Below are positions 48,214 through 52,247 of a DNA stretch of 64,000 nt, piece after piece (position 1 is the stretch's first letter; each line of letters begins with the position of its first letter). The position numbers were made by a program, and so were the translations under genes. Location of the stretch: positions 186,001-250,000 of the forward strand of contig JAUHWR010000001.1 in the NCBI GenBank assembly GCA_030427385.1, read 5' to 3'. The notes below the pieces were generated by a model. It saw only the letters and a program-made list of their open reading frames with translations. It ran no database searches and was not told where the DNA came from. The DNA is from Alphaproteobacteria bacterium (GTDB lineage: Bacteria; Pseudomonadota; Alphaproteobacteria; Micavibrionales; Micavibrionaceae).

Positions 48214-48362
48214 GATAAACTCCTCTATAAAATTACTATGACTTTATAATTCTTTTTCCCCTAAAAAGTCAAGTATTTTCCAATTATCACTTATTAAAAA
48301 TGCAAAATTGACATTCTATGGGGATGGGCGTAGCCTTTGTTTGTTCTATGGAGGAAACCAAC

Positions 48363-49031
48363 ATGAATACGATTCCTAATGTAACGCTAGCAATTATGTC
48401 TGTGGCATTTTTAACAGCCTCAAATCCGGAAGACGCCCAGGCGGTTAGTCCGCAAGATGCGTTAAATGTGATCGGTACGATCATGTGTATTACTAATCCT
48501 GAGTTATGCCAAGAGGCAGTAAAAGCTACATCACGAACTGCGGATGGAATTGTTTCTCCCAGTGAATTGGGTGATCCAAGTAAAATAAAATTTTTTGGTC
48601 GCACTCAAAATAGTCAGGGACAGGACGTGTATCTTTGGGATGTTGATGTAAAAGGTGATAAAGGTCTTGCATGTGTGGGAAATAAAAATTTCATTTCCCC
48701 TGAGCAGGAACAAATGGCTTTTATTGATCAAAGACGTTGTGAAAAAGTGTTTGGAGAAAATAATGATATGACACAAATCCAAATACCCCCCCCGCGGACA
48801 GCCACAAATGTTAATAATGGCGGGGATACCCTTTTTGGCACATTCGGAAAAAAACAGGCTTCTCAAGAGGGGATATATCCCGCCGTCGCTTGGGGGGCAA
48901 ATGCCTATAATAGGAGTGCGCCAACTGCTTGTTATGAAGTCACTGATCCTACTGATGAGGTCGCGGAATGGGTCGCCCCCACTTATTGCCGTGATAAAGC
49001 TATGCCGGTTATAAATTATACGTTCGATTAA
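48363..49031 (+). CDS. Secreted protein of unknown function
   Basis: About 222 residues. The start ATG 48363 is chosen because GGAGG stands seven bases upstream and a signal-like segment follows (TLAIMSVAFLTASNPEDAQA-V). The mature part has six cysteines (MCITNPELCQ, ACVGN, RRCEK, ACYEV, YCRDK), consistent with disulphides in the periplasm. No family is recognised. It is divergent from the glycine-zipper lipoprotein. Confidence 0.7.
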   Translation: MNTIPNVTLAIMSVAFLTASNPEDAQAVSPQDALNVIGTIMCITNPELCQEAVKATSRTADGIVSPSELGDPSKIKFFGRTQNSQGQDVYLWDVDVKGDKGLACVGNKNFISPEQEQMAFIDQRRCEKVFGENNDMTQIQIPPPRTATNVNNGGDTLFGTFGKKQASQEGIYPAVAWGANAYNRSAPTACYEVTDPTDEVAEWVAPTYCRDKAMPVINYTFD

Positions 49032-49416: not shown

Positions 49417-50376
49417 TTACTGTGCGCTCGCCACGCGGATATCCGCGCCTTGAGAGGCGGTATGTAACCACCACGCGCTGCGATTGATCGAGAAAATCGG
49501 GCGGTAGCGGTTGACGGAACTCGCGGCCTGCATAGATTTATTTTGATTGTCTAGCACCATTGCCCCGCGTTCGGTGTAAACAATTAAAACGGCATGCGGG
49601 ATATTCTTTTGCTTATCATGCACGATCGCCAATCTTAAACGCTCCTCCGGAACGCCAAGGGCACGCAGGCTGGCATATTTGGCGATGGCAAAATCTTCAC
49701 AATCGCCGCCGCGTGCAAAAAATTCCAGAGGCGTCGCCCAATAATCGGACTGCCCCCATAATTTATTATCTGAAATATAAGGGTAGGAATTCACGTACTT
49801 ATTCACTTTTAAGGTCATGTCATAGACTGATGATCCTTTAAAAGCAGATAGCTCTTTTTTCCAGGTAGCAATGATGGCTTTATTTTTTGTATTTTTAATG
49901 GATTTATCCAAACGGTCAAACATACCTGACCATTTCGTGAAAGGTCTTAAATTTTGTGAGGCTTTCTCAGTGGAGCCAAAAAGGGAGGGGTAATAATTTA
50001 AAGGCTCAATCCGTGTATCATCAATCCGTGTATCATAGGAAGATACCAACGTAATTTCGGTGGGAATATCTTTAAGTTGGCTGGCGCGAGCATTTTTTAA
50101 ACCTAATGATGAAAAGGCAATGAAAATAGTAAAAATCGTAGCGAGCGTACGAAACGCAAATTGTTCAAATAGAGCGCGACGCAGTTTGGCGGTGGTTAAA
50201 AAATTATGATTAATTAAAATTGTACCAAGCGGCACACATTCGGTTTTTTGTAAATTAAGGGCGGTTTTCAAATCATTTGCGGAAATTTGGCCGCTTTGAA
50301 CCAGAACTTCCCCCAATCTGTTGCGGTCTAAGCGTGCTTTTAAGCGTCTTAATATTCCCTGATGCCCCTGGCTCAT
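49417..50376 (-). CDS. MshEN-type domain fused to a LapG-like (DUF920) periplasmic cysteine protease
   Basis: 319 residues. Residues 20-43 (RLGEVLVQSGQ...ALNLQ) and 49-72 (PLGTILINHNF...ALFEQ) are two 24-residue motifs separated by five residues, the layout of c-di-GMP-binding MshEN (GspE N-terminal) domains. A single membrane helix follows (~74-93), with ARAS-Q after it as a possible signal-peptidase site. The rest is a transglutaminase-like cysteine peptidase of the LapG family, with C226 in GGDCEDFAIAKY, H261 in IPHAVLIV and D276 in MVLDNQ. LapG cuts surface adhesins when freed from the c-di-GMP receptor LapD. Here both functions may sit in one protein; c-di-GMP binding is inferred from the motif only. 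Confidence 0.85.
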   Translation of the reverse strand: MSQGHQGILRRLKARLDRNRLGEVLVQSGQISANDLKTALNLQKTECVPLGTILINHNFLTTAKLRRALFEQFAFRTLATIFTIFIAFSSLGLKNARASQLKDIPTEITLVSSYDTRIDDTRIEPLNYYPSLFGSTEKASQNLRPFTKWSGMFDRLDKSIKNTKNKAIIATWKKELSAFKGSSVYDMTLKVNKYVNSYPYISDNKLWGQSDYWATPLEFFARGGDCEDFAIAKYASLRALGVPEERLRLAIVHDKQKNIPHAVLIVYTERGAMVLDNQNKSMQAASSVNRYRPIFSINRSAWWLHTASQGADIRVASAQ

Positions 50377-50900: not shown

Positions 50901-51599
50901 ATGAATAAATACACACTTTCTCTTTTTACTTGTCTCTCACTGGGTGCGTTATCTGCATGTACAATTGGCGATTTTTATGGCCCAAGTGCAACGCCGCGCG
51001 GTTATGCACATACGCATCGTGAATATAAAACTGTGATTCCCGATCGCCCCTATTTTATTGGTGATGAATATTCAGATGAAGAAGTGATTCAATCTGAAGA
51101 GCTGTGGACGATGGGGATTAATGAGCTGTTAAATGAACTGGAGCTGAATTCATTCATGAATGGATTGAGTGTATCTCTGCAACCGGTAAGCCCGACTAAT
51201 TCTTTTGATGTGCGTATGGATTATTATCTACGTAAAGCATTAAAAGACCGTGGATATCTGATTGTGACGGATACAATAAGCAGCGTGCCGGTATTGAATG
51301 CCACGGCCAGATTGCCGGGATATGAAACCGGATTGCAATCAAAGGGGCGCGTAAAAGATGATCTGGATAACATGAGGGAGCATTTCGATGTGATGGAAGA
51401 TCCTAAAAATAATGGACAGCCATATGTATTCATGGGAATCGAAGTTTATGATATGAGCGCGCCTAAGGAAGAGCAACTTTTACTAAAAGTTGAAACGCTT
51501 CAAACTGTTCTAGATAAAGACATGCATGAAATCAGAGGGGCATTGATTGATGCGCCGCTTGTTTATGGCGTGCCTCCCAAATCAAATATCAATCCTTAA
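50901..51599 (+). CDS. Lipoprotein, partner of the FlgO-like gene
   Basis: 232 residues. The signal peptide ends in lipobox LSAC. The mature part has a mixed alpha/beta region (VRMDYYLRKALKDRGYLIVTDT) and ends in a strand-rich segment (PYVFMGIEVYDMSAPKEEQLLLKVET). It is followed after six bases by another lipoprotein gene, so they form one operon, presumably in the outer-membrane periplasmic face. No precise family assignment. Confidence 0.75.
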   Translation: MNKYTLSLFTCLSLGALSACTIGDFYGPSATPRGYAHTHREYKTVIPDRPYFIGDEYSDEEVIQSEELWTMGINELLNELELNSFMNGLSVSLQPVSPTNSFDVRMDYYLRKALKDRGYLIVTDTISSVPVLNATARLPGYETGLQSKGRVKDDLDNMREHFDVMEDPKNNGQPYVFMGIEVYDMSAPKEEQLLLKVETLQTVLDKDMHEIRGALIDAPLVYGVPPKSNINP

Positions 51600-51605
51600 C
51601 TGAAT

Positions 51606-52247
51606 ATGCTGCGTTCCGTTTTACATTCATTTAAATTTATCGGCGTCATGGGCGCGGTCTTGGTTTTAGGTGGATGTGAAATGAAACAAGGATGGAATCT
51701 TCCTGAATTCACATCCCTTGGCACAAAAGAACGTGCAGACTGGACGCATATTCGGCGTGCTAACTATGCGGCTGCTGATGTGCTGTTTCAACGCGCGGGT
51801 AAAAAATTGGATCGCTTTCACCGCGTTGAATTAATTCGCTTGAATAATTTAGGTGAGCCACTTGCCGAAGGCGTGGCACCGATTGAATGGTTGGTACCGC
51901 AACAGGTGGGCAATCGTCTGGCCATTTTGGGTCTGAAGGTCGATCAACCTAAAAAGGCGCCAATGAATGCCGCTGATAAACGCGCCGATGGCACTTTACC
52001 CATGCAATTATTTGATCAGGGATACGTAAAACCCGTTGTGACAAAGCGTGAATATGGGCATTTATACGTTGAGGGAGATTACGCCTATCTGGAAGATGAA
52101 TTATTAGTGTCTTTGCAATTGGTGGATGGAACAAAAAATTTGATTTTATCTTCGGTTGAATATGACATGAAAGTGGATCCTAATTTATTCATGCTTTTAA
52201 ACCCGATGGAAAATGACCGTCTATTTGATTCTGGCTGGATGTACTGA
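51606..52247 (+). CDS. FlgO-domain-like lipoprotein
   Basis: 213 residues. Lipobox LGGC lies after a hydrophobic signal. The mature protein matches the FlgO pattern: ANYAAADVLFQRA, then LIRLNNLGEPLAEG...QQVGNRLAILGLKV, and YVEGDYAYLEDELLVSLQLVDGTKNLILSS near the end. In Vibrio, FlgO is an outer-membrane lipoprotein linked to flagellar function; here the assignment is by pattern, so moderate. It forms an operon with the upstream lipoprotein. Confidence 0.65.
   Translation: MLRSVLHSFKFIGVMGAVLVLGGCEMKQGWNLPEFTSLGTKERADWTHIRRANYAAADVLFQRAGKKLDRFHRVELIRLNNLGEPLAEGVAPIEWLVPQQVGNRLAILGLKVDQPKKAPMNAADKRADGTLPMQLFDQGYVKPVVTKREYGHLYVEGDYAYLEDELLVSLQLVDGTKNLILSSVEYDMKVDPNLFMLLNPMENDRLFDSGWMY

Follow-up and report, generated by a model that had tools for sequence, protein, structure and literature searches.

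The gene at positions 49417-50376 on the minus strand of the window, i.e., of the whole stretch of 64,000 nucleotides that was analysed, encodes a 319-residue protein in which an MshEN-type domain, a signal-peptide-like helix and a LapG/BTLCP protease follow one another, as indicated by the open reading frame, by the matches to NF053729 and to NF045674 and PF06035, and by the conservation across the family and the order. That this fusion architecture is real we regard as practically certain. We are inclined to read the protein as a LapG/BTLCP protease with an export signal that has been extended by a cytosolic MshE-type receptor, serving as the standing LapG of the order and replacing LapD there.

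Architecture and distribution of the fused gene

The open reading frame comprises 319 codons running from 50376 to 49417, with the plus frame full of stops; the interval given in the first-pass annotation is correct, the strand being minus, to which all the feature coordinates below refer. The joining of an MshEN module and a LapG protease in one protein, which that annotation had claimed, is borne out, with both the NF053729 and the PF06035 models matched above their cut-offs. All of the 65 aligned family members that were tested match both the MshEN and the LapG models (NF053729 at E <= 0.001). Since about 100 of the 104 family genomes show the layout and these 65 members match both models, an origin of the layout by chance is ruled out, as a chance match of the MshEN motif is by the family-wide conservation. 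The structure model, built from the alignment of the 65 sequences, is confident in both domains, and the column statistics given below were taken over 96 homologues.

The fused gene is matched in 101 of the 104 Micavibrionaceae genomes, nearly always at full length, with one match being weak and one (in G095) being without the N-domain. Full-length matches are also present in other families of the order, and the fused layout was confirmed by inspecting twenty loci, of which three belong to the Micavibrionaceae and the others to further families of the order. Among 385 evenly sampled genomes of the class, the matches from outside the family are confined to the protease, and among 399 genomes of the phylum the full-length match is found only in the window's own genome. 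Based on the order-wide matches and on this absence from the class and phylum samples, the fusion characterises this order, as far as these samples and local profile alignment allow. As for conserved homologues without the N-domain, the existence of which the first-pass annotation had set against its reading, orthologues clearly of this kind occur in only two of the about 140 order genomes (L275 in G095 and L279 in G492). These two have lost the MshEN domain and resemble ordinary secreted LapGs, providing a natural comparison pair. In another genome (L276 in G029) the N-domain is split over two frames, as if by a frameshift or an assembly error. At eight loci (L073, L067, L079, L095, L108, L030, L052 and L076) the fused gene has a further LapG-like gene close by, which is unfused and encodes an ordinary signal peptide. 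It is noted that Micavibrio is filed under Bdellovibrionota in the NCBI taxonomy.

At the two ends of the protein, residues 1-19 (50320-50376) form a short basic N-terminal helix (helix 6-17 in the model, at lower confidence) in which the patch Gly7-[Ile/Val]-[Leu/Phe] is conserved, Gly7 being present in 93 of the 96 homologues, and residues 307-319 (49420-49458) form a C-terminal tail with low pLDDT over 312-319, where position 313 is Thr in 93/96 (Ile here) and Ala316 is invariant (96/96). The tail pattern T-x-[VIL]-A-S (49417-49458 of the window) is strongly conserved in the family despite the unconfident model there. An internal start that would give an MshEN-less protease was considered and rejected, with an ATG or GTG preceded by a Shine-Dalgarno-like site at codons 64-81 being present in 0 of 95 genes. 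Near the fused gene no RNA elements were matched at gathering scores, and the promoter and terminator scan around it gave matches near the shuffle level. The neighbouring genes, named from their sequences, are hldE-, pyruvate-kinase- and carboxypeptidase-like. A 237-residue predicted exported protein with no Pfam match (48318-49031 of the window) adjoins the fused gene, and two adjacent predicted lipoproteins with no Pfam or NCBIfam match (50901-52247) are syntenic with it in most family loci.

The MshE-type domain, the protease and the probable export helix

The N-terminal domain, residues 20-72 (50161-50319), matches NF053729, the NCBIfam model of an MshE-related c-di-GMP domain, over all 53 positions with an E value of 5.6e-14 and 51.7 bits against a curated cut-off of 38, so that the MshEN assignment of these residues in the first-pass annotation is significant. 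The proposed arrangement of two 24-residue motifs with a 5-residue spacer is also exact (residues 20-43, 44-48 and 49-72). Motif I (50248-50319) reads R20 L21 G22 ... L36 ... L40 ... Q43 and motif II (50161-50232) reads P49 L50 G51 ... L65 ... L69 ... Q72. The best PDB sequence matches of the domain are Thermus PilF 6f8l (5e-9) and Vibrio MshE 5htl (4e-4). In Foldseek, the predicted domain superimposes on c-di-GMP-bound MshE (5htl_B) over 57 columns at 1.1 A rmsd, a comparison that the earlier note had named as a check, and on PilF GSPII-B over 55 columns at 1.6 A; these hits have weak E values (0.03 and above), the domain making up only a small fraction of the query.

Conservation is concentrated at the positions that contact the ligand. 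The 12 c-di-GMP contact positions have a mean entropy of 0.61 versus 2.55 at the remaining MshEN positions, and random sets of 12 were never as low in 100,000 draws (permutation p < 1e-5). G22, L36, G51 and Q72 are invariant over the 96 homologues, L40, L69 and L50 are nearly so, and position 20 is Arg or Lys. The weakest contact position is Gln43 (Q in 71, S in 17 and H in 5), replaced in about a quarter of the homologues, mostly by Ser or His, and once it is relaxed to Q/S/H the MshEN motif is fitted by 93 of the 96. The first-pass annotation had pointed out that motif II opens with Pro instead of the usual Arg or Lys. The Pro is indeed present, but it is no departure within the family, where it is the commonest residue at this position (54/96), and GSPII-C of T. 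thermophilus PilF, which has Pro there as well (P335), has a KD for c-di-GMP near 0.3-0.5 uM (PMC11731258). Pro49 is therefore no objection to binding, and its reading as a binding defect is ruled out by these published data.

PF05157 is not among the Pfam matches of the fused protein. This model, which covers the region of the MshEN_C subdomain, appears to describe the C-subdomain, since in PilB of the window's genome it maps after both motifs (129-214 versus 73-124). The isolated MshEN_N (residues 1-62) is reported to bind c-di-GMP without the C-subdomain, which is thus dispensable for binding (PMC5013675). As judged from sequence, fold and conservation, the fused N-domain very probably binds c-di-GMP. 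PilB of the window's genome (L140:3619-5517) keeps its MshEN match, while on inspection its sequence has Lys and Ser in place of the two ligand Gln, and it probably does not bind c-di-GMP. Since this other MshEN domain has lost both Gln, the fused protease carries the only intact motif that NF053729 finds in the window's genome.

The protease domain, residues 132-306 (49459-49983), is matched by PF06035 (Peptidase_C93/BTLCP) over residues 185-292 with an E value of 1.3e-22 and 80.7 bits against a cut-off of 27, and its best PDB sequence match is Legionella LapG 4fgo (4e-21), to which Foldseek also leads with E 1.3e-11. The complete Cys-His-Asp triad that had been claimed is confirmed as Cys226 (49699-49701), His261 (49594-49596) and Asp276 (49549-49551), each invariant across the 96 homologues, as are Asp225 and Glu227, the calcium-ligand positions flanking the catalytic Cys. 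The LapG equivalog model NF045674 gives 110.7 bits, below its cut-off of 320, and by NCBI's criterion the protease is thus a BTLCP relative rather than a LapG orthologue.

Between the two domains, residues 73-98 (50083-50160) form a signal-peptide-like helix, with an Arg76 that is invariant (96/96), a hydrophobic stretch at 77-93 and a c-region. It is continuous with MshEN helix 4: in the model this last MshEN helix runs unbroken into the export helix (62-89), followed by low confidence from about 90 to 120. Residues 96-98, Ala-Arg-Ala (50083-50091), are a predicted signal peptidase I site with cleavage after Ala98, which is invariant (96/96) amid variable columns. At -3 the residue is A in 69, S in 18, V in 5, T in 2 and P in 2 homologues, i.e., small (A/S/V/T) in 94 of the 96, and the Ala-ending site is kept in other families, being read by eye in 15 of 15 MshEN-bearing orthologues. 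From Arg76 to Ala98 inclusive there are 22-24 residues in 88 of the 96 homologues. The linker to the protease, residues 99-131 (49984-50082), varies in length among homologues and is partly disordered in the model, with pLDDT of about 46-63 over 91-120.

The earlier description of this region as a single membrane segment holds insofar as a hydrophobic helix is present, but the features are those of a signal peptide. The maximum 19-residue hydropathy of the helix averages 1.59, which is lower than for the type I adaptor (2.45) and MreC (2.26) anchors of the same family and lower also than the value of about 2.0 reached by signal peptides, namely those of unfused LapGs and of a carboxypeptidase. 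A positive n-region (net charge +8.4 over residues 1-76), a hydrophobic core and an A-x-A pattern are all present. Unfused alphaproteobacterial LapGs have ordinary signal peptides with similar A-x-A sites, and in published work LapG and HvyA are exported via signal peptides (PMC13090378, PMC4241560). We read the helix as a signal peptide because of the Ala-x-Ala motif, the weak hydrophobicity and the resemblance of the sensor-less orthologues to ordinary secreted LapGs, and signal peptidase I likely cuts after Ala98, as the sequence predicts. Note also that Lys94 and Arg97 place positive charge just past the hydrophobic stretch, which is unusual in the c-region of a signal peptide.

LapD and the candidate substrate locus

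The profile search with LapD_MoxY_N matched none of the 104 family genomes, so that a separate lapD, which the first-pass annotation had set against its reading, did not turn up there, an unrelated receptor being possible. This absence is meaningful because the same model finds lapD elsewhere in the Pseudomonadota, with hits in 58 of the 200 genomes sampled from the phylum, frequently adjacent to lapG. A single PF06035 protein is present in the window's genome, along with two EAL proteins and five GGDEF matches, three of them strong, so that diguanylate cyclases are available to make the ligand, and the genome has no match to HD-GYP (PF13487). A GGDEF-EAL protein of 729 residues, with two helices and a loop that looks periplasmic (L036:652-2841), is LapD-like in outline only; as a LapD it was rejected, its EAL catalytic motifs looking intact by eye and LapD_MoxY_N giving no match, and it is a possible extra partner.

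A retention_LapA-like match, below the curated cut-off, is present in 72 of the 104 family genomes. In the window's genome it falls weakly on a 1079-residue FecR/FG-GAP protein, which also has a weak BapA_N match and a FecR match and adjoins an LssB-type ABC and an HlyD-type gene (a type I secretion pair), a CHASE2 adenylate cyclase and a cNMP-EAL protein, one of the two EAL proteins of the genome. The latter resembles Bdellovibrio Bd1971, of which a Micavibrio homologue is named in PMC6717892. The secretion/adhesin gene order recurs in several genera. In the window's genome these genes occupy L139:1149-11340 (about 674148-684339 of C1), where the ABC, HlyD-type, CHASE2 cyclase, retention-like and cNMP-EAL genes lie together next to mreB, which suggests cAMP-to-c-di-GMP control at this adhesin locus. 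The type I secretion/adhesin locus with its cNMP-EAL enzyme is our candidate for both the substrate and the input, and the fused protease gene lies apart from it. That the protease may trim surface adhesins is plausible. An adhesin with a LapG cleavage site, for which the first-pass annotation had proposed to search, did not emerge in the best candidate: among 19 candidate adhesins, no LapG-type di-Ala site, [TPASVQ]AA[GVIASQ], is conserved within the 600 N-terminal residues. Other roles exist for such proteases, as HvyA is an alphaproteobacterial BTLCP that acts in capsulation (PMC4241560).

Proposed mechanism, alternatives and known systems

Based on our reading, the N-domain would stay in the cytosol and bind one c-di-GMP by its two RLG...L...L..Q half-motifs, as the sequence, the fold and the conservation suggest. 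In the predicted model the last MshEN helix, which bears the contacts L65, L69 and Q72, enters the export helix, and since the contact-bearing helix thus continues into the export helix, binding of the ligand could shift the seating of the latter in the membrane. The protease would reach the periplasm on the flexible linker, and signal peptidase I would free it after Ala98, as the AxA motif indicates. With the sign borrowed from the Lap system, at high c-di-GMP the protease would remain unexported, uncut or tethered and the adhesins would stay on the cell, while at low c-di-GMP the protease would be released and clip the adhesins, and the cell would detach.

The fused domain probably controls the protease. 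Because the continuous helix 62-89 is followed by the low-confidence chain 90-120, direct transmission to the protease is unlikely and an effect on the export helix is likelier, and we favour, with some reserve, control mainly by export, processing or release rather than by allostery. The more specific proposal, that c-di-GMP on a receptor built onto a signal peptide gates the export or the signal-peptidase cleavage of a periplasmic protease, we put forward tentatively. The one-piece switch of the first-pass annotation therefore stands in part: the fusion, the intact triad, a motif of c-di-GMP type and the lack of a recognisable lapD are all supported, but the proposed transmission through the membrane is weakened by the invariant Ala98, the weak hydropathy and the low-confidence linker. 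Regulated tethering, export or release is a better fit than a signal passed on directly.

By contrast, if the helix were a stable, uncut anchor, the c-di-GMP signal would cross the membrane, e.g., by a dimer rearrangement, to a tethered protease. This is consistent with the single continuous helix formed in the model by MshEN helix 4 and the hydrophobic helix, with the positive charges flanking it, and with DvhG of D. vulgaris, a LapG homologue that is experimentally membrane-anchored (PMC13090378). Against these stand Ala98, which is invariant and has a small residue at -3, the hydropathy of 1.59 versus 2.26-2.45 for anchors, the low-confidence linker and the MshEN-less orthologues that resemble secreted LapG, and we consider a transmembrane switch unlikely, though it deserves attention. 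If cleavage, which the AxA motif suggests, were instead constitutive, control of the protease by MshEN would end with it, and the domain might act alone as a membrane stub. Alternatively, its c-di-GMP binding might serve placement, e.g., at a pole or near a secretion machine. In both cases the protease activity would not itself be set by c-di-GMP. MshEN domains are indeed reported as common on secretion and pilus ATPases (PMC5013675), but the fusion is kept across an order and mere targeting would not obviously require an intact nucleotide-binding motif, which makes such a role improbable. It is more improbable still that the N-domain is a relic that has lost c-di-GMP binding: motif II opens with Pro, Gln43 varies and two orthologues have dropped the domain, but the contact positions are conserved while the remaining MshEN positions are not, Pro is tolerated there in PilF GSPII-C, and in the window's genome it is the MshEN of PilB that is without both Gln.

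An alternative that concerns the substrate, and that is compatible with the export-control mechanism, is that under c-di-GMP the protease acts on a capsule or envelope target, as is the case for the Caulobacter protease HvyA, an alphaproteobacterial BTLCP with the same triad that controls capsulation (PMC4241560). The candidate adhesin without a conserved LapG site and the NF045674 score far under the equivalog cut-off (110.7 versus 320 bits) are in line with it. The retention-module-like protein in most family genomes, with type I secretion beside it in several genera, and the sequence being closest to LapG among solved structures speak for adhesins instead, and we consider a capsule or envelope substrate possible but rather doubtful.

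Returning to the export-control reading, the protein is like the LapD-LapG-LapA system of Pseudomonas fluorescens and Legionella in having a calcium-dependent cysteine protease of LapG type, in its probable control by c-di-GMP and, at another place in the genome, in a candidate retention-module-like protein accompanied by a type I secretion system. It is unlike that system in that the receptor and the protease are one polypeptide with no lapD found, that the receptor is MshEN rather than a GGDEF-EAL receptor with a LapD_MoxY_N periplasmic domain, and that the protease gene is far from the adhesin locus. In the literature examined, inside-out c-di-GMP control of adhesin proteolysis uses only a separate membrane receptor, LapD or DvhD, whereas in this case the receptor and the protease appear to have been merged throughout an order, which would be a very compact and testable variant of Lap-type control. 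If true, c-di-GMP gating of export or cleavage would be a new coupling of c-di-GMP to events outside the cytosol, with the nucleotide controlling the release of a protein at the membrane instead of acting by allostery or sequestration. The order includes epibiotic predators that need to attach to and leave their prey, and the fused protein gives a concrete handle on the possible control of this attachment; most of its members are represented by metagenomes alone, and for them a predatory lifestyle is not assumed.

No description of an MshEN-LapG fusion was found in the papers that mention both, which do so in passing or in a review of c-di-GMP effectors, and the MshEN partners given in the main text of PMC5013675 are kinases, cyclases, HD-GYP and receivers, with no protease listed there. 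The divergent Lap-like DvhD-DvhG system of Desulfovibrio vulgaris (PMC13090378) is similar in that its LapG homologue carries a membrane helix at the N-terminus as well as a disordered linker, but its receptor is a separate HD-GYP/dCache protein, unlike the fused cytosolic receptor here, in a genome without HD-GYP. HvyA of Caulobacter (PMC4241560) is likewise an exported alphaproteobacterial BTLCP with a Cys-His-Asp triad, but it has an ordinary Sec signal peptide and no c-di-GMP domain, and acts in capsulation under control by expression and turnover. With the MshEN/GSPII domains of MshE, PilF (GSPII-B and -C) and NfrB, the fused N-domain shares the 53-residue two-motif domain, the fold and the contact positions; unlike them, it is joined by an export-type helix to a periplasmic-type protease and is without the MshEN_C subdomain.
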